Positions 5,719 to 30,795 of a stretch of 40,644 nucleotides of DNA are shown here, piece by piece. The translations under genes were made by a program, and so were the position numbers. The DNA comes from Oscillospiraceae bacterium (GTDB lineage Bacteria; Bacillota; Clostridia; Oscillospirales; Ruminococcaceae). The notes beneath the pieces are model-generated. The model worked only from the letters and a program-made list of their open reading frames with translations. It searched no databases and was not told the origin of the DNA. The DNA is taken from contig JAGAZJ010000009.1 in NCBI GenBank assembly GCA_018110925.1, forward strand, positions 1-40,644, given 5' to 3'. Every line of letters begins with the position of its first letter. Within the stretch, counting starts at the first letter, position 1.

Positions 5719-6428
5719 CCTCTTACCCCCGTGATGTCCTTTATGACCTCACCTGCCATAATGAGCCCCATTACGGACGGCACGAATGACATTGAGCCCG
5801 GCACGACCTTTCCGCTGTCCGCATCCTTTACAGGATGCGCCTGAACGACGGGCTTCTCCTTTGAGTATACCACTTTAAGATGCTCTATGCCTCGCTTGCG
5901 GCACTCTGTACGCATCACCTTTGCAAGAGGGCATACAGATGTATCATAGATATCTGCCACTTCAAACATAGTCGGGTCCAGTTTGTTCCCTGCGCCCATA
6001 GCGCATATTATGGGCACTCCTGCGGCTTTTGCGGCTGTGACGAGCATCAGCTTGCCTGTCACCGTGTCTATGGCATCCACCACATAGTCATACCGGTTAA
6101 AATCAAAGCTGTCAGCGGTTTCGGGCGTATAGAAGATGTTGTATGTCCTTACGGTGCATTCCGGGTCAATATCCCTCACACGCTCTGCGGCGACTTCCGT
6201 CTTGTATCTGCCCACGGTGCTGTGCAGGGCTATTATCTGCCTGTTTATATTTGAGAGGGCGACCGTGTCGCTGTCGATAAGGTCAAGCGCACCGATGCCG
6301 CTCCTTGCGAGGGCTTCAACCACAAAACCGCCTACGCCGCCTACGCCGAATACCGCAACTCTTGCGCCTTTCAGCCTGTCAAGGGCTTCTCTGCCGATGA
6401 GAAGCTCCGACCTTGAAAAAATCTCCAT
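5715..6428 (-). CDS. tcdA: tRNA threonylcarbamoyladenosine dehydratase TcdA
   Basis: A 237-aa E1-like (ThiF/MoeB fold) enzyme that uses ATP to cyclise t6A at position 37 of ANN-decoding tRNAs to ct6A. The nucleotide-binding glycine loop VFGVGGVGGFVVEALARSGIG starts near residue 26. It is followed by LIDSDTVALSNINRQ (conserved D and N-x-N-R-Q of the superfamily), DYVVDAIDTV, and the CAMGAGNKLDPT motif of the TcdA/YgdL branch. Length agrees with the family. The start at 6428 follows GGAG, only about 20 bases after the terminator hairpin that ends icd, so transcription either reads through that hairpin or begins inside icd. It heads a five-gene set with four consecutive ATGA overlaps. Confidence 0.92.
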   Translation of the reverse strand: MEIFSRSELLIGREALDRLKGARVAVFGVGGVGGFVVEALARSGIGALDLIDSDTVALSNINRQIIALHSTVGRYKTEVAAERVRDIDPECTVRTYNIFYTPETADSFDFNRYDYVVDAIDTVTGKLMLVTAAKAAGVPIICAMGAGNKLDPTMFEVADIYDTSVCPLAKVMRTECRKRGIEHLKVVYSKEKPVVQAHPVKDADSGKVVPGSMSFVPSVMGLIMAGEVIKDITGVRG

Positions 6429-6447
6429 ATGTCATATGTCTCCGTAT

Positions 6448-6485
6448 TTAAAAAAAGGGGCTGTTGGCTCATCACTCAACAGCCC
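6448..6485 (-). terminator. rho-independent terminator after icd
   Basis: GGGCTGTTG at 6458-6466 and CAACAGCCC at 6477-6485 form a 9-bp stem. Read on the minus strand it is followed by a run of T from the A-tract at 6450-6456. It is a textbook terminator for icd but lies just upstream of tcdA on the same strand, so it may act as a partial barrier. Confidence 0.85.
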
Positions 6486-6497
6486 TTGTCAGGATAT

Positions 6498-7703
6498 TTA
6501 CAGAACGATGCGCTTTGCGATCTCGTCCAGGAATTCCTCTGTGTAAACGACTCTCTTGTCTGGAAGGGTGGACATAGCGGACAGGTTCTTGTCCATTATG
6601 CCGTCCTCCATAGTCTGTATGGAAGCCTTTTCAAGAGCATCCGCATAATGCATGAGCTCGGGCAGTCCGTCCATCTCGCCTCTCTTGCGCAGAGCGCCGC
6701 TCCATGCGAAAATGGTCGCAATGGGGTTGGTGGAGGTCTTTTCACCCTTGAGGTGGTTGTAATAGTGACGTGTTACAGTGCCGTGAGCGGCTTCGTACTC
6801 ATACTTGCCGTCGGGAGAAACCAGAACGGAGGTCATTAGACCGAGAGAGCCGTATGCAGTTGCCAGCATATCTGACATAACGTCGCCGTCATAGTTCTTG
6901 CAAGCCCATATGAAGCCGCCCTCGGAGCGGATCACTCTTGCCACTACGTCGTCTATGAGGGTGTAGAAATACTCTATGCCCTTTGCGGCGAACTTGTCTT
7001 TGTACTCATTCTCGTATATCTCAGCGAATATATCCTTGAAGCGATGGTCGTAGGTCTTTGAAATAGTGTCCTTAGCAGCGAACCAGAGGTTCTCGCCTGC
7101 GTCGAGAGCATAGTTGAAGCAAGCCCTTGCGAATGAAGATATGGACTTGTCGGTGTTGTGTACGCCCTGAACGATACCGTCGGAATTCTTGAATTCGTGT
7201 ATGAGTGCCCTTGTCTCTGTGCCGTCGGGATCGGTTATGACAAGCTCAGCCTTGCTGCCCTGAGCGGCTTTCAGCTCGGTGTTCTTGTATATGTCACCGT
7301 ATGCGTGACGGGCAATGGTGATGGGCTTTGTCCATGTGGGGATATAGGGTGTGATGCCCTTAACGAGTATGGGCTTTCTGAAAACCGTGCCGTCAAGAAT
7401 GGCTCTGATAGTACCGTTGGGGGACTTCCACATCTCCTTGAGGTCATATTCCGTCATTCTCTGCGCATTGGGTGTGATAGTTGCGCACTTTACGGCTACG
7501 CCGTACTTCTTGGTAGCCTCTGCGGAGTCGATGGTCACCTGATCGTTGGTCTCGTTTCTGTGAACCAGGCCGAGATCGTAGTACTCGGTTTTAAGGTCAA
7601 CATAGGGGAGTATGAGCTTATCCTTTATCATCTGCCAGATGACTCTGGTCATCTCGTCGCCGTCCATCTCAACGAGGGGCGTTTTCATCTGTATCTTTGA
7701 CAT
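6498..7703 (-). CDS. icd: NADP-dependent isocitrate dehydrogenase (eukaryotic-type, subfamily II)
   Basis: A 401-aa enzyme converting isocitrate to 2-oxoglutarate and CO2 with NADP reduction. The sequence is close to the mitochondrial/cytosolic IDH family: PLVEMDGDEMTRVIW at the N-terminus, the substrate-binding WKSPNGTIRAILDGTVFR, TKPITIARHAYGD, YTLIDDVVARVIRSEGG, KNYDGDVMSDMLA (metal-binding Asp residues), and AAHGTVTRHY. Length fits the family. I chose the ATG at 7703 (MSKIQMKTPLV), preceded by AAAAAGGAATG. A start at 7724 would add seven residues and consume the ribosome site. It follows the PARG-like gene closely and, with aconitase, completes the citrate to 2-oxoglutarate branch used for glutamate synthesis in anaerobes. 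Ends at a strong terminator. Confidence 0.96.
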   Translation of the reverse strand: MSKIQMKTPLVEMDGDEMTRVIWQMIKDKLILPYVDLKTEYYDLGLVHRNETNDQVTIDSAEATKKYGVAVKCATITPNAQRMTEYDLKEMWKSPNGTIRAILDGTVFRKPILVKGITPYIPTWTKPITIARHAYGDIYKNTELKAAQGSKAELVITDPDGTETRALIHEFKNSDGIVQGVHNTDKSISSFARACFNYALDAGENLWFAAKDTISKTYDHRFKDIFAEIYENEYKDKFAAKGIEYFYTLIDDVVARVIRSEGGFIWACKNYDGDVMSDMLATAYGSLGLMTSVLVSPDGKYEYEAAHGTVTRHYYNHLKGEKTSTNPIATIFAWSGALRKRGEMDGLPELMHYADALEKASIQTMEDGIMDKNLSAMSTLPDKRVVYTEEFLDEIAKRIVL

Positions 7704-7730
7704 TTTTATCATTCCTTTTTTCATCGTTCC

Positions 7731-8432
7731 TCAGAAGGGTATGGCAAAGACTATCTCGGTCTCTGTCCTGCCCGTGAGGTCATTTACGGCACGTTCAAAC
7801 ATAGGGCCGACTTCCTCCCAGCGGTTGCCGAATGCACCGCACCCATACTTGCCGAGCACGAGTATATCGGGGCGCTTCTGCATACCCAGGGTGATTATGC
7901 GGCGGATGCGTTCCTCCATGATCTCGTTTGCTTTCTTGTGAGAGATCCTTGCCGCATAGCGGTTCACCGCAGGTGATGTGATAAATCCGCACAGCATGGG
8001 TTCTTCAAGGATCCTGCCGTTGTCATCCCTCACCACGGGAACTCTTGATGAGTATATCATGCCGTGAGTGTAGCCCTTTGCATCAGTGAAATGATTTGCC
8101 TGATAGAATTCCACCGTGTCCTTTATGGTGTAATACAGTCCCGACGCACGGCATATGTCCTCCTCCTGTGCTTTCGCACCGAAGATATATCCGCCGCCTG
8201 CGAAGTTTGCGTTTGCGAAATTGAGTGCGAGCACGTCCCTGCCCCGATTGGCGAGGATACACCCTATGGTGGTCATGGGCACGGTATGCTCGGATATCCT
8301 GTAAGGCTCTTCCCTCGGGAACCCCGTCGGCATAATGTCGGGCACATATTCGGAATACTGCCCGTCGAATGAGCCTATATCGAACATATTGTCATTTTCA
8401 TGCTTCAGCTTGATATTGTCTATGGTGTTCAT
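7731..8432 (-). CDS. microbial-type poly(ADP-ribose) glycohydrolase-like macrodomain protein (TIGR02452 family)
   Basis: A 233-aa protein of the bacterial-type PARG family. The hallmark catalytic region is intact: FANANFAGGGYIFGAKAQEED, with Gly79-81 and Gln89-Glu90-Glu91 (GGG-x(7)-QEE). Other family segments are VLALNFAN, MIYSSRVPVVRDD, and ILVLGKYGCGAFGN near the C-terminus. Such enzymes bind ADP-ribose polymers or terminal ADP-ribose and hydrolyse the ribose-ribose bond. No ADP-ribosyltransferase is visible in the window. The gene lies 33 bases after aconitase and just before icd on the same strand, so all three are probably one transcript. The ATG at 8432 follows AGAGGTGCGGC. The upstream gap contains the palindrome ACAGACGTCTGT. 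Confidence 0.88.
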   Translation of the reverse strand: MNTIDNIKLKHENDNMFDIGSFDGQYSEYVPDIMPTGFPREEPYRISEHTVPMTTIGCILANRGRDVLALNFANANFAGGGYIFGAKAQEEDICRASGLYYTIKDTVEFYQANHFTDAKGYTHGMIYSSRVPVVRDDNGRILEEPMLCGFITSPAVNRYAARISHKKANEIMEERIRRIITLGMQKRPDILVLGKYGCGAFGNRWEEVGPMFERAVNDLTGRTETEIVFAIPF

Positions 8433-19643: not shown

Positions 19644-20957
19644 TCATTCGTCAAGGCACTTGTCAAGTCCGTCGCATATGCCCTGCTTGTCCATTTTCTG
19701 ACCGATGAAGACGAGCTTTATCTCTCTGTCACCGTACTTGTCATCCCAGCTTGCGGCGATGTCGGGATATTCCTTGAGCAGACGCTCTCTTTCCTTTGCA
19801 GGAGCGGCGGCGAACCACTTGCCCGAATTCGTTGCCGTTATCTGGATGCCCGACTGCTCGAATACAAAGGCATCCTCCCATGAATCCGAGAACCAGAGCA
19901 TACCCTTGCAGCGGATAACGCTCTTTGGCCAGTTCTCAACCCACTGCTGGAGACGTTCCTTGTTAAAGGGCTTTCTGCGGTAATACACGAATGTGCCGAT
20001 GCCGTACTCCTCAGCCTCGCCCTCGCCGTGGTGATGATGATGGTGATGTCCGTGATGATGTTCATGCTCGTCGTCATCATCGTCATCGTCGTGGTGGTGA
20101 TGATGGTGCTCATGCTCGTCGTTATCGTCATGATCGTGATGATGCTCGTGCTCGTCGTCATCGTCATCATCGTCATGATCGTTATGATGCTCGTGCTCAT
20201 CATCATCGTCATCATCGTCAACGCCGTTTTCATATGCCTGAGCCCAGCCTGCGGATGTGACGGCTTCCTCAAAATCGTAGATGTTTGTATCGAGTATATC
20301 GCTGACAGCGACTTTGCCGTAGCTTGCCTCGATTATCCTTGCCTTGGGCTGGAGGGCACGGATCATTGCCTTGACTCTTTCAAGCTGATCCTTGTCTACC
20401 TTGTCCACCTTGTTGAGTATTATAGTTGTGCAGAACTCTATCTGCTGGATGAGCAGGTTCTCTATATCCTCCTCCCCGATATCCTCCTTGAGAAGATCGT
20501 CGCCGCAGCCGAATTCCGACGCCATACGCAGAGCATCGACCACCGTAACGATGTTGTCAAGACGGCATATGGGGGGATAGCGTCTGTCGCCTGTTCTGCC
20601 TTCAAGCACGGATATTGACTGTGCTATAGGCATAGGCTCGCAGATACCGCTTGCCTCAATGAGCAGATAGTCAAACTTGCCTGTCTTGATAAGGTCCTGT
20701 ATCTGGTTCATAAGGTCAACCTTGAGTGTGCAGCAGATACAGCCGTTTGAGAGCGGAACGAGGTTCTCGTCCTTCTGAGTAACATTGCCGCCCTTTTGGA
20801 TAAGTGAAGCGTCGATGTTCACCTCGCCGATGTCGTTTACGATAACGGCGCATTTATAGCCTTCCTGATTGTTCAGGACGTGGTTTATGAGAGTGGTCTT
20901 GCCTGCTCCCAGATAACCTGTGAGCAGAGTTATCGGCACGAGCTTGTTGTTCTTCAT
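19644..20957 (-). CDS. CobW/ZNG-type G3E GTPase with His/Asp-rich metal-binding tract
   Basis: A 437-aa P-loop GTPase of the COG0523 group of metallochaperones, which load zinc or other metals onto client proteins. Motifs are Walker A GYLGAGKTT (14-22), the family CxCC metal motif in NGCICCTLK (Cys73, 75, 76), SGICEPMPIAQ and NKVD (182-185). Residues 247-310 are almost entirely Asp, Glu and His in about four imperfect repeats (D-run, EHEHH, H-run). The C-terminal CobW domain resumes at GTFVYYRRKPFN (about 321) and contains KGMLWFSDSW. The ATG at 20957 follows AAAGGATCG; the longer reading to 21023 would cross the promoter. The metal specificity is not readable, though zinc is most likely for His-rich members. 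Confidence 0.92.
   Translation of the reverse strand: MKNNKLVPITLLTGYLGAGKTTLINHVLNNQEGYKCAVIVNDIGEVNIDASLIQKGGNVTQKDENLVPLSNGCICCTLKVDLMNQIQDLIKTGKFDYLLIEASGICEPMPIAQSISVLEGRTGDRRYPPICRLDNIVTVVDALRMASEFGCGDDLLKEDIGEEDIENLLIQQIEFCTTIILNKVDKVDKDQLERVKAMIRALQPKARIIEASYGKVAVSDILDTNIYDFEEAVTSAGWAQAYENGVDDDDDDDEHEHHNDHDDDDDDDEHEHHHDHDDNDEHEHHHHHHDDDDDDDEHEHHHGHHHHHHHGEGEAEEYGIGTFVYYRRKPFNKERLQQWVENWPKSVIRCKGMLWFSDSWEDAFVFEQSGIQITATNSGKWFAAAPAKERERLLKEYPDIAASWDDKYGDREIKLVFIGQKMDKQGICDGLDKCLDE
20028..20219 (-). repeat. in-gene tandem repeat encoding the Asp/His tract
   Basis: About 190 bases built from short GATGAC- and CATGAC/CACCAC-type units within the CobW-type gene, encoding residues 247-310. 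Repeat copies are imperfect and preserve the frame, so unit gain or loss could change the length of the metal-binding arm. Confidence 0.8.
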
Positions 20958-20994
20958 TGTGATCGATCCTTTCATATGTTTTAAAAACACATAT

Positions 20995-21023
20995 ATTATA
21001 TCACTAATCAAGAGTGATTTCAA
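20995..21023 (-). promoter_or_regulatory. promoter with embedded operator-like inverted repeat for the CobW-type gene
   Basis: On the minus strand TTGAAA (21023-21018) and TATAAT (21000-20995) are 17 bases apart. The spacer itself is an inverted repeat, TCACT-N7-AGTGA, ideally placed for a repressor. A second inverted repeat with ATATGT/ACATAT arms lies just downstream, near 20974-20994. Confidence 0.6.
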
Positions 21024-21437: not shown

Positions 21438-22349
21438 TTACCGTATTTTAAGCTCATAAAAAAAGTCGTCCATAACATATCCGCCGCCTATGCCGGTGAC
21501 ACCCTCACCGCAAAGCTCAAAGCCCATTGCCTTGTAAGCCGCTATGGAGCTGTCGTTGTGCTTGTTTACCGTCAGCCATATGCCCTCAAAGCCGTGCTCT
21601 CTGCAATAGTTCTTGTGGATATCAATGACGGCACGGGCATATTTTTTGCCCCGCTCTTCCTTTTTAAGATATATCTTTGACAGAAAGAGCCGCCTGCCGT
21701 CGGGTTTTACCGCAGTATAGCCTATGTCTTTCCCGTCGTGCTTTATAAAATAATATATATAGTTCTCACCGGCGATATTTTCTTTCATGGCATCAAAGGA
21801 GCAGAACTTTTTGACCATGAAGTCCACCTGCTCTGTGCTTATTATACCGGGGAAATACTCATGCCATATCTCGTTCGCAATATCGGCAATGCGCCTCAGC
21901 TGATCGTCAGTAACAGCTTCAACAAGCGAGATGCTGTTCATATTCTGTCTCCTCTCTGCAAAAAAGGCTTTGAGAATGCCTGCACACTCATCGCTCATGC
22001 ATCCTCCCTCCGAAACACAAACGGGCTGTCTGCCCGTATCGGGAGCGCCGTATATGACCTTGTCGAGCCGTGCGTTGGCGCAGGCGCCGCTGCACATGGG
22101 ACATGGGGCAAGGGTCACATACATGGTGCACCCTGTCAGCCGCCAGCCCCCGAGAGTGCGGGATGCTTCATCTATCGCCTCTATCTCAGCGTGGGCAAGA
22201 GAGGAACGGGCTTTCTCACGTCTGTTCCTGCCCCTGCCGACTATCATCCCGTCCGAGTTCCTGACTATCACAGCGCCGACGGGCACTTCTCCGTCAGCCG
22301 CCGCTTCATTCGCAAGGCTCAGCGCCTCTGCCATATATCTGTCGTTCAT
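21438..22349 (-). CDS. tadA: tRNA adenosine(34) deaminase TadA fused to a GNAT acetyltransferase
   Basis: One continuous 303-aa frame with two domains. Residues 1-136 are TadA, which deaminates A34 to inosine in tRNA-Arg(ACG); the zinc site is intact (HAEIEAI with His53/Glu55, PCPMCSGAC with Cys83/Cys86). Residues 137-303 are a GNAT-fold acetyltransferase (IADIANEIWHEYFPGII, YLKKEERGKKYARAVIDIH as the acetyl-CoA loop, HNDSSIAAYKAMGF). At residue 137 there is an ATG (21941) with a perfect ribosome site (GGAGACAGAAT), so the GNAT part could also be made alone as 167 aa. The start at 22349 overlaps the upstream stop as ATGA; the longer reading to 22400 lies inside the CPBP gene. A stop-codon loss joining two adjacent genes is the simplest origin. 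Confidence 0.88.
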   Translation of the reverse strand: MNDRYMAEALSLANEAAADGEVPVGAVIVRNSDGMIVGRGRNRREKARSSLAHAEIEAIDEASRTLGGWRLTGCTMYVTLAPCPMCSGACANARLDKVIYGAPDTGRQPVCVSEGGCMSDECAGILKAFFAERRQNMNSISLVEAVTDDQLRRIADIANEIWHEYFPGIISTEQVDFMVKKFCSFDAMKENIAGENYIYYFIKHDGKDIGYTAVKPDGRRLFLSKIYLKKEERGKKYARAVIDIHKNYCREHGFEGIWLTVNKHNDSSIAAYKAMGFELCGEGVTGIGGGYVMDDFFYELKIR

Positions 22350-23467
22350 AGCATAATGAACCTGCTCATAACTATGTATATGATGTAGATCATTATCCAT
22401 ACCATAGTTGCAGGGTTTGAAAACACCATCATGATCTTCTCGGAATCCGTCAGGAACATATTGTACATCGGCAGGCTTATCCTGTTGCTGTAACGTGCCA
22501 CAAAGCGTATGGTTGCCACCACCCCGATGCCTATGAACACGATGATGACCGCCATAGGTATCACGGAAAGGTCTTTATCGGGCGAGAGCACACGGCTAAT
22601 GGTTATCAGATAATAGGATACCGAGAATATGACCCTCATCATCACGGCTGTCAGCAGCGAACCTGTCCTGAGCGCAAAATAACCTGTCAGCAGTGAAAAC
22701 GCAAACATGAACAGGAAATGACCCTCGGGCGAGAAAAACGCTGTCAGCAGGCTCGTGAGGACAAGCGCAAAGCCGTCACCGTATTGCCTGAACAGATTGA
22801 GGAAAATGCCCCTGTGGATCATTTCACTCATTACAGGTATGATGAGCATATAGAGTATCATCACCGGTATGCGCTGCCACTTGTCGAGCAGAAGTATGTG
22901 GCTCCAGTCACGGACAGTGTGCAGTATGGCAGACTGAAGGTCAAGGCACAGATAAAGCACCCCGAATGCCAGCATGGCAAAGAATATGCTGTTTATAAAA
23001 AGGGGCGGGTTTGAGATCTTAGTCGGGAGCATTATCCTCAGAGGCGCTTTCAGCTTTACCATGAGATATGCCACAGGTATGATGCGTATGGCTGCATTCA
23101 CGGCGTAGCTCATGATCACGGGCGCAGGTCCGTGACCGATAAAGAAGCCCTCCTTGCAGATACTCATGCCGAAGAGCGGTCTGGGATAACCTGAGAACGC
23201 AAGCATCAGAAGAAACTGCAAAAGCGAATATATAGCCATCACGGTGGCAACAAGCCTGATGGTCCTGTGCAGAACGGCTGTTTCATCTGCGGCAGGGTAC
23301 TGCCCTACGAAGCCCTCGCCCGCCAGATAGGTGTTTTCCTTTTCTGCGGAGCGCTTGAAAAAGCCGAAATCGTTTGATTTGTCGAGAGACCATTCACGGT
23401 ACATCTCGTTGTATGTCTTATCCTGCTGTTTGAGCGAGGATATTCGTTCATCACTTCCCGAGGGCAT
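22346..23467 (-). CDS. divergent CPBP (Abi/CAAX) family membrane protein
   Basis: A 373-aa integral membrane protein with a soluble, charged N-terminus of about 65 residues followed by eight or so hydrophobic segments. The central region IPVMSEMIHRGIFLNLF is the CPBP motif 1 position, but the usual EExxxR reads SExxxR here (Ser214-Glu215, Arg219). The second motif His is present (SPEGHFLF, His250). The third motif is not obvious. Such families include Rce1-like prenyl-protein proteases and bacteriocin self-immunity proteins; activity here is doubtful because the first Glu is replaced. The ATG at 23467 follows AAAGGCGGTGGACAG. It heads a three-gene unit with tadA-GNAT and the 121-aa gene and has its own promoter. 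Confidence 0.75.
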   Translation of the reverse strand: MPSGSDERISSLKQQDKTYNEMYREWSLDKSNDFGFFKRSAEKENTYLAGEGFVGQYPAADETAVLHRTIRLVATVMAIYSLLQFLLMLAFSGYPRPLFGMSICKEGFFIGHGPAPVIMSYAVNAAIRIIPVAYLMVKLKAPLRIMLPTKISNPPLFINSIFFAMLAFGVLYLCLDLQSAILHTVRDWSHILLLDKWQRIPVMILYMLIIPVMSEMIHRGIFLNLFRQYGDGFALVLTSLLTAFFSPEGHFLFMFAFSLLTGYFALRTGSLLTAVMMRVIFSVSYYLITISRVLSPDKDLSVIPMAVIIVFIGIGVVATIRFVARYSNRISLPMYNMFLTDSEKIMMVFSNPATMVWIMIYIIYIVMSRFIML

Positions 23468-24837: not shown

Positions 24838-24866
24838 CGTCTGAAAGTGTCTTTCGCTTTCAGACG
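24838..24866 (+). terminator. terminator before the GTPase-NYN gene
   Basis: CGTCTGAAAG (24838-24847) and CTTTCAGACG (24857-24866) form a perfect 10-bp stem followed by TATTTCAT. It separates the membrane protein gene from the next operon, which starts 34 bases later, so read-through or a promoter in this gap is possible. Confidence 0.75.
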
Positions 24867-24899: not shown

Positions 24900-27401
24900 T
24901 TGAAAAAAAGGATAGTTATAGGCATAGCCGCCCATGCAGATGCGGGCAAGACCACTCTGGCAGAGGCCATGCTGGTAATGTCGGGAGTCCTGCGGACAGC
25001 AGGCAGAGTAGACAGCGGCAGTGCATATCTCGACACCACGGATATGGAAAAGCAGAGGGGCATAACCGTCTTCTCGCATCAGGCGGTCATGACATACAAG
25101 GATATCGGCATAACCATACTTGACACCCCCGGTCATTCCGATTTCTCGGCCGAAGCGGAGAGGACATTCTCCGTGCTGGATGCGGCTGTTCTGGTCATAA
25201 GCGGCACAGACGGCGTTCAGCCCCACACGATGACGCTGTGGAGGCTTCTCGGGCATTACGGCGTGCCTGTGATAGTATTTGTGAACAAGACCGACATATC
25301 TCATAGGCTGGAGACGATACCCGACGAACTGAAACGTCTGTCCGACAGGATCGTTCCATATGAGGAGGAGTATCTTGCCGAGTGTGATGAGCGCATAATG
25401 GACGAGTATCTTGAAAACGGCTCTGTTTCGGAGGATACGCTTGTTTCCGCATTTGCGGAGAGGGCGTTCTTTCCCTGCTTCTTCGGGTCGGCACTCAGGA
25501 ATGAGGGCGTCGGGGCGGTGCTGGAAGCGGCAGCGCTCCTGACTTCGCCGAGACACGGCGGAGATGGCTTCGGTGCAAGGGTATACAAGATATCGGGCGA
25601 CAACGGCACAAGGCTCACGCATATGAAGATCACGGGCGGAACGTTGTCTGTGCGTGACAGGATAGGCGATGAAAAGGTCACACGTCTGCGCATATATTCG
25701 GGGTCTAGGTACACTCAGACCGACACGGCGGAGGCAGGTGAGATAGTTGCCGCAGAGGGCATAACGAGCCTTGCCGCAGGCGACGGCGCAGGCTTTGAGA
25801 AGCGTTCTCAGGCGGTGCTTGAACCCGTAATGCGCTATAAGGTCATATCCGATGCCGACCCGTTGGTGCTGTATGACAGACTGCGCGAGATAGAGGCAGA
25901 GGAGCCTGTGCTGAGAGTGCGCCGTGAGAACGGCGAGATAAGTGTGTTCGTCATGGGCGATATACAGCTCGAAGTGCTGAGAAATATGTATGCGGAGCGC
26001 TTCGGCGGCAGTATATCCTTTGGCGGCGGCAGTATATCCTATCGTGAGACCATTGCCGCACCCGTGACAGGCATAGGGCACTATGAACCCCTCAGACACT
26101 ATGCGGAGGTCGTTGTCGAGATATCGCCCCTGCCTGCGGGCAGCGGCATCATCTGCGGGACAGACTGCTCCGAGGATATACTTCACAGGCGCTTTCAGCA
26201 TATGGTCATCTCCTGTCTTGAAAGCAAGGAGCATATAGGTGTGCTGACAGGCTCGCCCCTCACCGATGTAAAGATAACCCTGAAAAACGGAAGAGACCAT
26301 GTCAAGCACACTGAGGGCGGAGATTTCAGGCAGGCGGCGCTGAGAGCGGTAAGAATGGGTCTTATGCACGCCGAGAACGTGCTTCTTGAACCGTATCTGT
26401 CATTCGTGCTGACAGTCCCTCAGTCGAATGTGGGCAGGGCAATGACGGATATGCAGAATATGGGCGCAGAGTTCGGCGCACCGGATCAGGACGGCGATAT
26501 GGCGGTGATAAAGGGTTCTGCTCCCGCCGCAGGCATAGGCTACTATCACAGCGAGATCCAGAGCTATACAGGCGGCAGGGGTCTGCTCTCAACGGAGTTT
26601 GACGGCTATTATCCATGCAGGAACGCCGACGAGGTCATAGCAGAGGTGGGATATGACCCCGAAGCAGACCTTGAAAATCCGCCCGACAGCGTGTTCTGCT
26701 CGCACGGCGTGGGCACGGTGGTGCGCTGGGATATGGTCAGAGACTATATGCACACCGAGGAAGACGGCAGAGTTACCGTCGTACAGCCTGAGATCACCCC
26801 TGCACAGGCGGCACGTTTCAGGGCAAGGCTTTACAGCGATGATGAGCTTATGGAGATATTTGAGCGCACCTACGGCAGGATAGAACGCCCGAAGCGCTAT
26901 GCCATGCGCCGTGAAGAGAACGTGACGTCAAAGCCGCACAAAAAGCCGGTGCAGGCTCAGGGCAAGGACTATCTGATCGTTGACGGCTACAATATCATAT
27001 TTGCGTGGGACGATCTCAGGGAGCTGTCAAAGACGAGCCTTGACCATGCACGTCACCGCCTGACCGAAATGATGATAAACTATGCAGGCTTTAAAAACTG
27101 TGAGCTGATACTTGTATTTGACGCTTACAGAACTCATGAGGAGCGCCGCACGGAGCGTGTGAGCAATATAACCGTGGTCTATACCAAGGAGGCTGAGACT
27201 GCGGATATGTATATTGAGCGCACCACCCACGAGCTTGCACCCAAGGCAAAACGTGTCAGGGTGGCGACATCCGACTATGCCGAACAGCTCATTATCCTCG
27301 GAAACGGCGCACTAAGGATATCCGCAAGGGAATTCTATGAAGAAATGCGGCTCACCGAGGACACCATAAGAACTATCATAGAGGGTATGAAAAGATCATG
27401 A
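24900..27401 (+). CDS. Tet(M)/EF-G-like translational GTPase fused to a YacP/Rae1-type NYN nuclease domain
   Basis: An 833-aa protein. Residues 1-670 follow the ribosomal protection / EF-G layout. The GTPase motifs are AHADAGKTTL (11-20), RGIT (53-56), DTPGH (75-79) and NKTD (129-132), followed by domains II-V (EPVMRYKV near 308, VMGDIQLEVL near 351, ALRAVRMGL near 480). A linker around 671-689 leads to a NYN domain (690-833) with YLIVDGYNII (Asp695), LVFDAYRT (Asp741), KEAETADMYIE (Asp769) and VATSDYAEQ (Asp792), matching the YacP/Rae1 family. Rae1 of Bacillus is a ribosome-dependent mRNA endonuclease acting at the A site, so the fusion physically joins an A-site GTPase to an A-site nuclease. 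The TTG at 24900 follows GAAAGGAC. Tetracycline resistance is not implied by this sequence. The stop overlaps the next ATG. Confidence 0.9.
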   Translation: MKKRIVIGIAAHADAGKTTLAEAMLVMSGVLRTAGRVDSGSAYLDTTDMEKQRGITVFSHQAVMTYKDIGITILDTPGHSDFSAEAERTFSVLDAAVLVISGTDGVQPHTMTLWRLLGHYGVPVIVFVNKTDISHRLETIPDELKRLSDRIVPYEEEYLAECDERIMDEYLENGSVSEDTLVSAFAERAFFPCFFGSALRNEGVGAVLEAAALLTSPRHGGDGFGARVYKISGDNGTRLTHMKITGGTLSVRDRIGDEKVTRLRIYSGSRYTQTDTAEAGEIVAAEGITSLAAGDGAGFEKRSQAVLEPVMRYKVISDADPLVLYDRLREIEAEEPVLRVRRENGEISVFVMGDIQLEVLRNMYAERFGGSISFGGGSISYRETIAAPVTGIGHYEPLRHYAEVVVEISPLPAGSGIICGTDCSEDILHRRFQHMVISCLESKEHIGVLTGSPLTDVKITLKNGRDHVKHTEGGDFRQAALRAVRMGLMHAENVLLEPYLSFVLTVPQSNVGRAMTDMQNMGAEFGAPDQDGDMAVIKGSAPAAGIGYYHSEIQSYTGGRGLLSTEFDGYYPCRNADEVIAEVGYDPEADLENPPDSVFCSHGVGTVVRWDMVRDYMHTEEDGRVTVVQPEITPAQAARFRARLYSDDELMEIFERTYGRIERPKRYAMRREENVTSKPHKKPVQAQGKDYLIVDGYNIIFAWDDLRELSKTSLDHARHRLTEMMINYAGFKNCELILVFDAYRTHEERRTERVSNITVVYTKEAETADMYIERTTHELAPKAKRVRVATSDYAEQLIILGNGALRISAREFYEEMRLTEDTIRTIIEGMKRS

Positions 27402-28222
27402 ACGATATGACCGCATCACTTACAACAAAATTTTCACACAGCATAATGTCAAGAACAAAGGCGGCTGTAAAGGAATATTCCATGATAAAAAAGGGCGACA
27501 GGATAGCGGTGTGCATATCCGGCGGCAAGGACTCCATGCTCCTTGCCTGTGTGATGCGTGAGCTGAAACTGCACGGGGGATATGACTTTGAGCCAGTGTA
27601 CATGGTGATGGATCCGGGCTATGCGGAAAAGCCTCTTTCGCAGATACATCACAACCTTGACCTGCTGGGGATAGATGCGCATATATTCACCACAGACATA
27701 TTTGCCGCCTCCGAGGGGGACAGAAATCCCTGTGCGCTGTGTGCCAAACTGCGCCGTGGTGCGCTGTATTCGCAGGCACAGTCTCTGGGCTGCAACAAGA
27801 TAGCTCTGGGGCATCACTTTGACGATGTGATAGAGACCACCCTCATGGGCATGGTCTACGGTGGGCAGATGCAGACCATGATGCCGAAGCTGAAAGCCAA
27901 GAACTTTGAGGGGATGGAGCTTATCCGCCCCATGTATCTTGTGAGGGAAAAGGATATTATAAACTGGCGTGATGAGCACGGACTGGAGTTCATACGCTGT
28001 GCGTGCAGGTTTTCCGAGAGGGCAGAGCATGACGAGAGCGCTTCAAGACGGCAGCTTGTGAAAAGGCTGATCGCTGACCTGAAAAAGAACGACCCTCAGA
28101 TAGAGATGAACATATACCGCAGTGCCTGCAATGTTGACCTGTCAAGGATAATATCATATAAGGGCACTGACGGCGTGGTACGCTCTGTGATGGAGGGTTT
28201 TGCGGACGATGCAGACTGTTGA
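27398..28222 (+). CDS. TtcA-like PP-loop ATPase (tRNA 2-thiolation family)
   Basis: A 274-aa N-type ATP pyrophosphatase related to TtcA, the enzyme that thiolates cytidine 32 of tRNA. The PP-loop CISGGKDS is at 39-46. Cys112 and Cys115 (NPCALC) together with Cys201/Cys203 (RCACR) could hold the iron-sulfur cluster used by TtcA/TtuA enzymes. GHHFDDVIETTLMGMVYGGQM is the conserved TtcA region. The C-terminal part is charged. Its ATG overlaps the stop of the GTPase-NYN gene (ATGA), so the two are translationally coupled. The exact tRNA target cannot be assigned; 2-thiocytidine is the family default, but many Firmicute paralogues are uncharacterised. Confidence 0.85.
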   Translation: MNDMTASLTTKFSHSIMSRTKAAVKEYSMIKKGDRIAVCISGGKDSMLLACVMRELKLHGGYDFEPVYMVMDPGYAEKPLSQIHHNLDLLGIDAHIFTTDIFAASEGDRNPCALCAKLRRGALYSQAQSLGCNKIALGHHFDDVIETTLMGMVYGGQMQTMMPKLKAKNFEGMELIRPMYLVREKDIINWRDEHGLEFIRCACRFSERAEHDESASRRQLVKRLIADLKKNDPQIEMNIYRSACNVDLSRIISYKGTDGVVRSVMEGFADDADC

Positions 28223-28568
28223 CGAAGCGCTTGAAAAGCTGTCACGCTCAAAGTTCAGGGCAGGCTTTCATCTGAGAAAATATCAGATATCATATATTGA
28301 TGAGAAGGGCATGGACACGGTGGAGAGCCATTGCAGGGACTTCATAGCAAAGCGCCTTGCACCCGCTTTCCCCGCAAATGACGGCAGGCAGACCCCCATG
28401 AAGGGACACCCCGTGTTCATCGCACAGCACGCCTGTGCCTGCTGCTGTCGTGGATGCCTTGAAAAGTGGTACAGAGTACCGCAGGGCAGAGAACTCACCG
28501 GGGACGAACAAAGGCGCATAGTTAGACTGCTCATGGCATGGATAGCAAGGGAATACCGCAAATCGTGA
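28209..28568 (+). CDS. DUF4186 family protein
   Basis: A 119-aa protein of the DUF4186 family. It begins LEKLSRSKFRAGFHLRKYQISYID. It carries HCRDFIAKRLAPAFPANDG and GHPVFIAQHACACCCRGCLEKWYRVPQG, a cluster of four cysteines plus His that probably binds a metal, and ends WIAREYR. Function is unknown. I chose the ATG at 28209 because GGAGGG lies about 10 bases upstream; the TTG at 28200 would sit too close to it. The gene overlaps the end of the TtcA-like gene by 14 bases in another frame and completes the three-gene unit. DUF4186 proteins are often found as single genes, so its place beside translation genes is worth noting. Confidence 0.85.
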   Translation: MQTVDEALEKLSRSKFRAGFHLRKYQISYIDEKGMDTVESHCRDFIAKRLAPAFPANDGRQTPMKGHPVFIAQHACACCCRGCLEKWYRVPQGRELTGDEQRRIVRLLMAWIAREYRKS

Positions 28569-28624: not shown

Positions 28625-28668
28625 ATATTAAGTTTAATGTGCACATTGTCCGAGGTCAGGTGAGATAT

Positions 28669-30795
28669 ATGTCAGAAGCATCAAGGATCAGTCAGAAAAG
28701 ATCCAGACGAAACAAGCTTATCATTGTCAGTATCGCAGGTATAATAATAAATATCATAGGGGCAAAGGCGGTAACGGAACTGTCATTGCCGATATACCTC
28801 GATTCAGTTGGTACTGTGCTTGCGTCTGTCCTGAGCGGATATATACCCGGAATGATAGTGGGGCTCTTTACTAACCTGATAAAGGGCATCACCGACATCG
28901 AGTCTGTCTACTATGCGCTGATAAATGTTCTCATAGCGCTTGTCTCCGGCATTTTTGCCGAAAAAGGCCTGCTTAGGAAATGGTGGGGCTATGTGCTGCT
29001 GGTGTTCTCACTGTCGTTTATAGGCGGCTGTCTGGGGTCAGTGCTGATATGGCTGGTAAATGAGCTGAAAGGCGGCACAGAGGGGCTGTTCAGAGACATC
29101 ATCGACGTCATTCCCTTTGATATACTTGACAAGCTCATAACAGTGGCTGTGCTCATAGCAGTGACGGCTTTTTTGCCAAAGGCTGCGCTTGAAAAGATAA
29201 GATACACCGGCTGGCAGCAGAAGCCTCTATCATCCGCCGATGTGAAAAAGGCGAAAGAACAGGCGCACAGCACCAGGCACAGCGGTCTGGGACTAAGGGC
29301 AAAGATACTTGCACTGCTGATATCCGCCTGCTTTCTCATTGGTGTGGTGGCGCTAGCCATAAGTACGGTGCTTTACAGGGACTATACCATAGAGGAGCAT
29401 AAGATAATAGCTCAGAGCGTGGTAAACCTTGCTTCCACCGTCATTGACCCGTCAAGGATAAACGAATTCATCGAAAGGGGCAGGGAAGCTCCCGGGTATG
29501 CTGCGGTGGAGAGCAGGTTCTATCACATACTGGAGAGCTCTACCGACATAGAATATATCTATGTCTATAAGATGACCGAGGAAGGCATCGTGGTGGTGTT
29601 TGATCTGGATACGCCCGAGTTGAAGGGCGATGCTCCGGGAACACTGAAACCCTATGATGAGTCTTTCAGAGAGCTTGTGCCCGACCTGCTGGAGGGCAAG
29701 GAGATCCCGCCCGTCATAACCAACGATACCTACGGATGGCTCATAACAGTGTACAAGCCCATGTTTGACAGAAACGGCAACTGCAGCTGCTATGTGGCGG
29801 CGGATATATCCATGGGGATTATAAGAAAACAGGCATTCATATTCTTCGCAAAACTGTTCTCGATATTTTTGGGCTTCTTCACCGTCATTATCGTGTTCGG
29901 TATGTGGATATCGGAATACAACATTGTACTGCCGATAAACACCATGTCGCTCTCGGCAGGGGCTTTCGCATACGACAGCGAGTCCTCCCTTGAGGACAAC
30001 GTGGAGAACATCAAGGAGCTTGACATACGCACGGGTGACGAGATAGAGCATATGTATCAGGCGTTCTCAAAGACCACCGAGGACAGCCTTAAATACGCAA
30101 GTGACCTTAAGACCAAGACCGAGACCCTGTCAAAAACACAGAACGCTCTTATCATGGTGCTTGCGGACATAGTGGAGAGCCGTGACCAGGAGACAGGCGA
30201 CCATGTAAGAAAGACAGCCGCCTATACACGCATCATCATGGAAAAGATGCGTGAGCTGGGCTATTACGAGGAACAGCTCACAGACCGTTTCATGTACGAT
30301 GTGGAGCACTCTGCACCCCTCCATGACATCGGTAAGATAAAGGTGTCTGACACCATACTCAATAAGCCTGGCAAACTCACGGATGAGGAGTATGAGATAA
30401 TGAAGACACATACCACTGCGGGCGCTGAGATAATCGAGCAGGCGATACAGACCGTGCCCGACTCGCAGTATCTAAACGAGGCGAAGAACCTGGCAGAGTT
30501 CCACCATGAAAAGTGGAACGGCAAGGGCTATCCCCACGGCATATCCGGCGAGGATATACCGCTGTCCGCAAGGATAATGGCTGTGGCAGACGTGTTTGAT
30601 GCACTGGTCTCGGAAAGATGCTATAAGAAGGCATTCACCTTTGAACAGGCTATGGACATCATAAAGAAGGATGCAGGCTCTCACTTCGACCCGAAGGTGG
30701 CGGATGCGTTCATACAGTCATCCGACAGGGTGAGGGAGATAGCGCTGCATTTCAGCGAACACAGACCCGTGAGAAAAGAGATCGGGCAGATATGA
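28669..30795 (+). CDS. membrane-bound HD-GYP phosphodiesterase with ECF-S-like and Cache-like sensory regions
   Basis: A 708-aa signalling protein. Residues 15-175 form five or six membrane helices with the PIYLDSVGTVLASVLSGYIPG pattern seen in ECF-transporter S components and related sensor modules. A further helix at about 212-234 is followed by an outside region (about 240-385) of Cache type (VVNLASTVIDPSRI, YIYVYKMTEEG, YVAADIS), then another helix (about 390-412), a HAMP-like linker with RTGDEIEHMYQAFSK, and the HD-GYP domain (about 490-690). Catalytic residues are present: His512 (GDHVR), His552-Asp553 (LHDIGKI), HTTAGAEI and GYP (620-622). It should hydrolyse cyclic di-GMP or a related dinucleotide. 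The ATG at 28669 follows AGGTGAGAT; a GTG at 28639 is possible. Confidence 0.92.
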   Translation: MSEASRISQKRSRRNKLIIVSIAGIIINIIGAKAVTELSLPIYLDSVGTVLASVLSGYIPGMIVGLFTNLIKGITDIESVYYALINVLIALVSGIFAEKGLLRKWWGYVLLVFSLSFIGGCLGSVLIWLVNELKGGTEGLFRDIIDVIPFDILDKLITVAVLIAVTAFLPKAALEKIRYTGWQQKPLSSADVKKAKEQAHSTRHSGLGLRAKILALLISACFLIGVVALAISTVLYRDYTIEEHKIIAQSVVNLASTVIDPSRINEFIERGREAPGYAAVESRFYHILESSTDIEYIYVYKMTEEGIVVVFDLDTPELKGDAPGTLKPYDESFRELVPDLLEGKEIPPVITNDTYGWLITVYKPMFDRNGNCSCYVAADISMGIIRKQAFIFFAKLFSIFLGFFTVIIVFGMWISEYNIVLPINTMSLSAGAFAYDSESSLEDNVENIKELDIRTGDEIEHMYQAFSKTTEDSLKYASDLKTKTETLSKTQNALIMVLADIVESRDQETGDHVRKTAAYTRIIMEKMRELGYYEEQLTDRFMYDVEHSAPLHDIGKIKVSDTILNKPGKLTDEEYEIMKTHTTAGAEIIEQAIQTVPDSQYLNEAKNLAEFHHEKWNGKGYPHGISGEDIPLSARIMAVADVFDALVSERCYKKAFTFEQAMDIIKKDAGSHFDPKVADAFIQSSDRVREIALHFSEHRPVRKEIGQI

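Follow-up and report, generated by a model that had tools for sequence, protein, structure and literature searches.

A 40,644-nucleotide contig from an Oscillospiraceae bacterium of the class Clostridia (GenBank assembly GCA_018110925.1, contig JAGAZJ010000009.1; this whole stretch is called the window below) encodes an 833-residue protein in which an EF-G-type translational GTPase is joined to a C-terminal nuclease domain of the NYN_YacP (Rae1) family. The GTPase-NYN fusion is real and carries intact motifs of both enzymes, and it appears, from comparison of genomes across the class, to stand in for the free-standing Rae1 that other members keep beside rlmB. We lean towards the reading that the fusion is a Rae1-type endoribonuclease whose docking on the ribosome has been handed to the EF-G-type GTPase.

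The architecture itself is already known, and the novelty implied by the first-pass annotation of the window did not survive a literature search. Atkinson 2015 (PMC4342817) reports that Tet proteins of ten Clostridiales species gained a YacP-like NYN RNase domain, with the same layout of an EF2-family GTPase followed by a C-terminal NYN, and proposes a resistance mechanism involving RNase activity. Among the papers listed by our search, this was the only one seen to discuss the architecture, and no functional test of the fusion was found. That paper groups the fusions with Tet and proposes drug resistance helped by an RNase; in our comparison the GTPase makes up a separate clade, and Rae1 appears to have been replaced by the fusion. 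What is added here is the distribution of the fusion, its exclusivity with Rae1, the loss of a C-terminal motif and the placement of the GTPase.

The fused protein carries intact motifs of both enzymes

The first-pass annotation had described an EF-G-type GTPase joined to an NYN nuclease with its acidic residues kept, and Pfam matches and alignments of fused proteins agree with it (Table 1). The NYN_YacP domain that it had placed at residues 690-833 was recovered by the profile search at residues 692-829. D695, N698, D741, D769 and D792 were invariant in fused alignments of 41 and 67 rows, and E764 was invariant in the former and conserved in at least 90% of the latter. D695, D741, D769 and D792 were furthermore kept in 122/122 fused and 27/27 stand-alone rows; 75 of the 80 named loci listed passed the full-length filter, and some of the 122 fused rows are near-duplicates that were obtained twice, by different routes (e.g. 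L078/L122, L060/L121 and L058/L226). On the GTPase side, the G-domain motifs G1 (AHADAGKTT), RGIT, DTPGH79 and NKxD were all intact, and the GTPase histidine (H79) was kept in 121 of the 122 fused rows of the alignment.

The claim of a complete EF-G/Tet(M) layout stood for domains G, IV and V, which scored over their cut-offs, and fell short for the other two: domain II was below its cut-off and no Pfam match of its own was found for domain III in the 833-residue protein. Part of the evidence for the complete layout is therefore the similarity to TetM and EF-G over the whole length. Behind domain V lies a family-specific extension, whose residues S597, F599, C600 and G603 are common to fused proteins and to sister GTPases without an NYN domain, and which falls in gaps in the Tet and EF-G rows; in the window protein it is followed by a 76-residue linker that spans from H618 to D695. 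The fusion is beyond chance, since full-length fused homologues of 40 further genomes aligned at 44-52% identity.

In the window genome, which is 69% complete, the fusion protein was the sole NYN_YacP match, and no match reached the TetM/W-type NCBIfam cut-off. This genome also encodes two EF-G-type paralogues, L091 and L092, on other contigs. The second of these (L092, G000:C23) has degenerate GTPase motifs (GHSGSGKTT, DAPGL and TKAD) and presumably resembles the EFG-II-like proteins.

Fused and free-standing nucleases are nearly exclusive within the class

We searched 392 genomes of the class with PF05991 and with a profile built from 41 fused proteins, and found PF05991 matches in 251 of them. 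The fusion was present in 137 genomes, with GTPase and NYN in one match in 131 (counting G073, where the NYN is cut short, and G064 and G113, where the start is missing) and in fragments in the other 6. A stand-alone domain over the cut-off was the only form in 113 genomes, where it lay in open frames of 160-226 amino acids, except for one of 342 amino acids in G301; G307, with a sub-cut-off NYN match, was left out of this count. Fused and stand-alone domains occurred together only in G299. Three further genomes (G123, G184 and G220) were rejected as two-copy genomes, their second NYN matches scoring about 21 bits against a cut-off of 24.6. Matches were present in 20 of the 79 genomes of the window's order, every one of them in an open frame of at least 854 amino acids. 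The near-exclusive pattern was also seen inside families: f10, f23, f24, f28 and f48 each include fused and free-domain genomes and no genome that has the two domains together, f10 and f28 each including one free-domain genome (G389 and G053, respectively) among fused ones, and in f52 the only free copy was that of G299.

The fused copy of G139 (L058), a genome of this class, was nearly identical to the copy in a record of Monoglobus pectinilyticus, which places the class as Clostridia. Two records of a plasmid collection and two unannotated ones of a phage collection also covered at least 80% of the fused protein, and the NYN part was covered in 0/49 viral-contig loci.

The fusion appears to replace a Rae1 encoded beside rlmB

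Kinship of the fused nuclease with Rae1, as proposed in the first-pass annotation, was borne out. The window NYN domain matched the solved Bacillus subtilis YacP/Rae1 with an E value of 2e-25, ungapped across 133 residues, and both PDB entries of that protein (5mq8 and 5mq9) have the same acids as the fused domains. D695, D741, D769 and D792 of the window protein correspond to D7, D53, D81 and D104 of 5mq9, which we take to be catalytic. The genomic setting differs: B. subtilis Rae1 is free-standing and co-transcribed with yacO, an rlmB homologue, and loss of either gene suppresses an efp defect in a non-additive manner (PMC6613710), whereas the window protein, in contrast to the free-standing form of about 170 amino acids, is fused and the rlmB locus of its 69% complete genome (L244) has no NYN neighbour.

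Stand-alone rae1 adjoined rlmB in 42 of 48 loci, namely in 22 of the 27 best-scoring loci, which lean to family f39, in 19 of 20 further hand-chosen ones and in G299. Among 25 fused genomes, likewise hand-chosen, the best rlmB match was without an NYN neighbour in 24, the exception again being G299. In a tree of NYN domains (63 rows, including 25 of the 122 fused domains), the fused domains and three stand-alone ones (L295, L290 and L027) formed one set with support of 100/99, apart from the 35 other stand-alone domains. Domains of f23, f24, f48 and f52 fell on both sides of this division, and genomes of f23, f24 and f48 carry one kind or the other. Two of the genomes whose stand-alone domains group with the fused ones, G221 (L027) and G238 (L290), also carry an NYN-less sister GTPase, possibly as a split or pre-fusion pair.

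Most fused nucleases lack the C-terminal motif of Rae1

The C-terminal motif LxxxR was aligned in 27/27 stand-alone rows, those of the best-scoring loci, versus 11/122 fused rows, and the window protein, which ends 30 residues past G803, is without it. The tail past G803 spans 54-56 residues in stand-alone and 16-76 residues in fused rows. B. subtilis Rae1 keeps the motif as EKWRR in 5mq8, whereas most fused domains do not; residue 164 is W in the solved chain of 5mq8 and L in that of 5mq9. L290, L295 and L027, the stand-alone domains nearest to the fused ones, retain LxxxR, and the loss of the motif therefore goes with fusion rather than with clade. The Arg of the motif aligns with B. subtilis R165, and the adjoining position carries the suppressor substitution R166P, inferred in that work to cause loss of function (PMC6613710). 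We infer that LxxxR may be the docking element of Rae1, in place of which the GTPase would now dock.

The GTPase belongs to a clade of its own

The first-pass annotation had called the GTPase Tet(M)-like, and in the strict sense this was not upheld. The protein scored 366 bits against the NCBIfam model tet_protect (cut-off 775), 257 bits against TetM/W (cut-off 1100) and 243 bits against the EF-G equivalog TIGR00484 (cut-off 659), and so reached none of them. The tip of domain IV also differs. TetM Pro509 lies at this tip, within the tetracycline site (PMC8161019); the tip loop consensus of the fused clade is GRxHxKHTxGGDFR, with Lys in the Pro509 column in 116/122 fused and 24/25 sister rows, and in the 13 Tet-type rows this column holds Pro in 8 and Val or Met in the other 5. 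H470 and T471 of the loop were present in all fused rows, and His at 467 was kept in 116/122 fused rows, as in both EF-G rows. Compared with Tet(M), Tet(O) and Tet(W), the fusion has a similar layout of domains G, II, IV and V and similarly intact GTPase motifs, but it is without their YSPVS tip, has a C-terminal extension of its own and falls in a separate clade, with about 30-31% identity to Tet(W) and Tet(O).

In a quick tree of the GTPase (86 rows, with 46 of the 122 fused rows, 13 Tet-type rows and 2 EF-G-type rows), fused proteins and NYN-less sisters formed one clade, distinct from two sets of Tet-type rows and from the EF-G-type rows, with a support of 100 in the Shimodaira-Hasegawa-like approximate likelihood-ratio test, and this clade may branch within a wider Tet group. 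The fused rows formed one set (support 95) save for one NYN-less sister inside it. The sisters, of about 650 amino acids, occur in several families of the class and on Ligilactobacillus salivarius megaplasmids; their tip loop and extension are as in the fusion, and they stop before the linker and NYN domain. Eight fused genomes that gave a second match to the profile also encoded a separate Tet-type protein of about 640-690 amino acids. In 12 fused genomes with such second matches, none of these was an NYN-less sister, all being Tet-type proteins or pieces of the fusion. A strict pairing of NYN-less GTPase and free Rae1 was considered and dropped: at 18/25 versus 96/230 (Fisher p = 0.005), the association is dominated by f39, has seven exceptions and is suggestive only.

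The first-pass annotation had also noted that such fusions are named as tetracycline resistance proteins. This proved right for one of two annotated copies, that of Agathobacter rectalis ('TetM/TetW/TetO/TetS family'); the other, from Monoglobus, is named 'translation factor GTPase family protein'. The L. salivarius record of the NYN-less sister is likewise annotated as TetM/W/O/S family.

A proposed role on paused ribosomes and its alternatives

The first-pass annotation had suggested a message cutter docked on the ribosome, and we would infer much the same from the comparisons above. In its GTP form the protein would, like EF-G and TetM, occupy the A site of a ribosome that has paused, with the tip of its own domain IV reaching into the decoding region. 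Through the extension and linker the NYN domain would then be able to cleave mRNA at the A-site codon or close to it, and GTP hydrolysis would release the factor. More tentatively, the fusion could be a GTPase-gated nuclease that has displaced free Rae1 in many Clostridia, and the NYN-less sisters a further family of A-site factors that goes under tetracycline-resistance names. If so, a gene that many Clostridia carry and that is sometimes listed under tetracycline resistance would be a translation-coupled mRNA decay factor, and some resistome annotation would be corrected. The question whether a GTPase fusion can replace Rae1's own ribosome-docking part would also become testable. To our knowledge, this would be the first nuclease carried into the ribosome by a translational GTPase.

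Several observations weigh against a Rae1-type nuclease that docks through its GTPase. Loss of LxxxR is not strict, since the motif is retained in 11 fused rows, and in another NYN tree (63 rows, 36 of them fused) a single fused domain (L069) was placed on the side of the stand-alone ones. The exclusivity of fused and free domains was compared for kinship at the within-family level only. Moreover, 141 of the 392 genomes, including 59 of the 79 in the window's order, are without a Rae1 match, so Rae1 function is dispensable. Of the 25 genomes with an NYN-less sister, seven (G026, G029, G056, G070, G126, G189 and G303) have no Rae1 match, and the GTPase thus serves some purpose independent of Rae1. 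Finally, the sister inside the fused clade (L225, positions 5998-7917 of an L. salivarius megaplasmid) has no NYN, which may reflect secondary loss.

The sisters also favor a picture in which two independent enzymes are merely tethered, the GTPase having its own translational role and the NYN acting on free RNA. We consider this quite unlikely, as the A site is where relatives of each partner act (PMC8161019, PMC10100781), the fused rows form one set save for a single sister, the fusion is kept in over a third of the genomes searched and the C-terminal motif of Rae1 is gone from most fused rows. A nuclease that works on the ribosome could instead cut ribosomal RNA (rRNA) or transfer RNA (tRNA), in ribosome inactivation or tRNA quality control. 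NYN domains have been proposed to act in rRNA and tRNA maturation, as stated in PMC4342817, and rlmB, next to which the free enzyme is encoded, is an rRNA methylase gene. The characterised relative Rae1, however, whose acids match those of the fusion, is reported to destabilise mRNAs in a translation-dependent manner (PMC10100781), with S1025 named as a Rae1 substrate in PMC11780869, and a TtcA-like neighbour of the window gene is not conserved, which makes this alternative unlikely.

The least probable of the alternatives is a ribosome protection protein, which would clear tetracycline or a different A-site drug and in which the nuclease would play an accessory part, akin to the RNase-resistance idea of Atkinson 2015. 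The EF-G/Tet-type layout, the resistance name of one copy, the rank of tet_protect as the best NCBIfam model and the position of the fused clade and Tet rows on one side of the tree against EF-G all fit such a protein. They are opposed by the shortfall in the tet_protect score, the low identity to Tet(W) and Tet(O), the separate Tet-type protein of eight fused genomes and the lack of the NYN part in viral-contig loci, and also by Lys at the Pro509 column, where five Tet-type rows are likewise without Pro. The protein may still act on an A-site drug other than tetracycline. A Rae1-type endoribonuclease docked by its GTPase is the reading that we prefer.

Neighbouring genes, upstream hairpins and other features of the window

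Two genes follow the fusion gene on the same strand (Table 1), the TtcA-like open reading frame (ORF) overlapping the fusion stop by 4 nucleotides and the DUF4186 ORF overlapping the TtcA-like ORF by 23 nucleotides. The first-pass annotation had taken the three as a unit, which we rejected as a general feature. At 119 other fused loci, searched over 5 kb or as far as the fetched stretch ran, neither a TtcA-like nor a DUF4186 neighbour was present, and the flanks retrieved for 7 other DUF4186 loci, which reached up to about 1.5 kb, held no TtcA-like gene. DUF4186 occurs in 8 of the 79 genomes of the window's order, and the linkage looks local to the window genome and incidental. No neighbour family was conserved, none occurring in more than 11 of the 119 fused loci; the two commonest were transporter-like by eye. 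Directly downstream of the DUF4186 ORF, positions 28639-30795 (+) encode an HD_5 protein with a weak, sub-cut-off match to an energy-coupling factor transporter-like N-terminus.

Table 1. Coordinates of the fusion gene, its domains and adjacent features in the window
Feature	Position	Strand	Evidence or remarks
Hairpin, 10-bp stem	24838..24866	+	Between preceding gene (ends 24804) and fusion start; terminator of that gene or leader element
Fused protein gene	24900..27401	+	TTG start, 833 amino acids, open ORF; EF-G-type translational GTPase and C-terminal NYN_YacP (Rae1)
GTPase (G) domain, residues 3-212	24906..25535	+	Pfam GTP_EFTU, 157 bits
EF-G domain II, residues 228-295 (weak)	25581..25784	+	EF-G_D2, 19.8 bits, below cut-off of 27
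EF-G domain IV, residues 377-491	26028..26372	+	Pfam EFG_IV, 59 bits
Domain IV tip loop, residues 464-477	26289..26330	+	K469 at TetM Pro509 column, H467 at EF-G-type His column
EF-G domain V (EFG_C), residues 494-575	26379..26624	+	Pfam EFG_C, 67 bits
Family-specific C-terminal extension, residues 585-618	26652..26753	+	S597, F599, C600, G603, W610
NYN_YacP/Rae1 nuclease domain, residues 692-829	26973..27386	+	Pfam PF05991, 163.5 bits, gathering cut-off 24.6, E 5.5e-48
TtcA-like PP-loop protein	27398..28222	+	Pfam ATP_bind_3, 57 bits; TtcA model 193 bits, below cut-off of 272
DUF4186 protein	28200..28568	+	Pfam DUF4186, 172.5 bits

Terminator-like hairpins were commoner upstream of fused genes (13/55) than upstream of the other genes at these loci, taken with 100 or more nucleotides of intergenic sequence (8/264; p = 2e-6). 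An attenuator ahead of the fused gene was considered on this ground and carries no weight in the reading proposed here. Of 17 hairpins listed, that of the window included, 8 begin at most 35 nucleotides past the preceding gene and are probably its terminators, and the other 9 are not so explained. No consistent leader peptide was found upstream of fused genes, and Rfam gave no match in the window region, nor in the same-strand sequence immediately ahead of the fused gene in 14 other loci.

Two further proteins of the window combine domains. Positions 21438-22400 (-) hold a 320-amino-acid ORF with a cytidine-deaminase-type domain (residues 20-151), which we take to be TadA-like, and a GNAT acetyltransferase domain (about residues 188-299). 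Positions 19644-21023 (-) encode a CobW-type GTPase with a long His/Asp-rich insertion ahead of its CobW_C domain.

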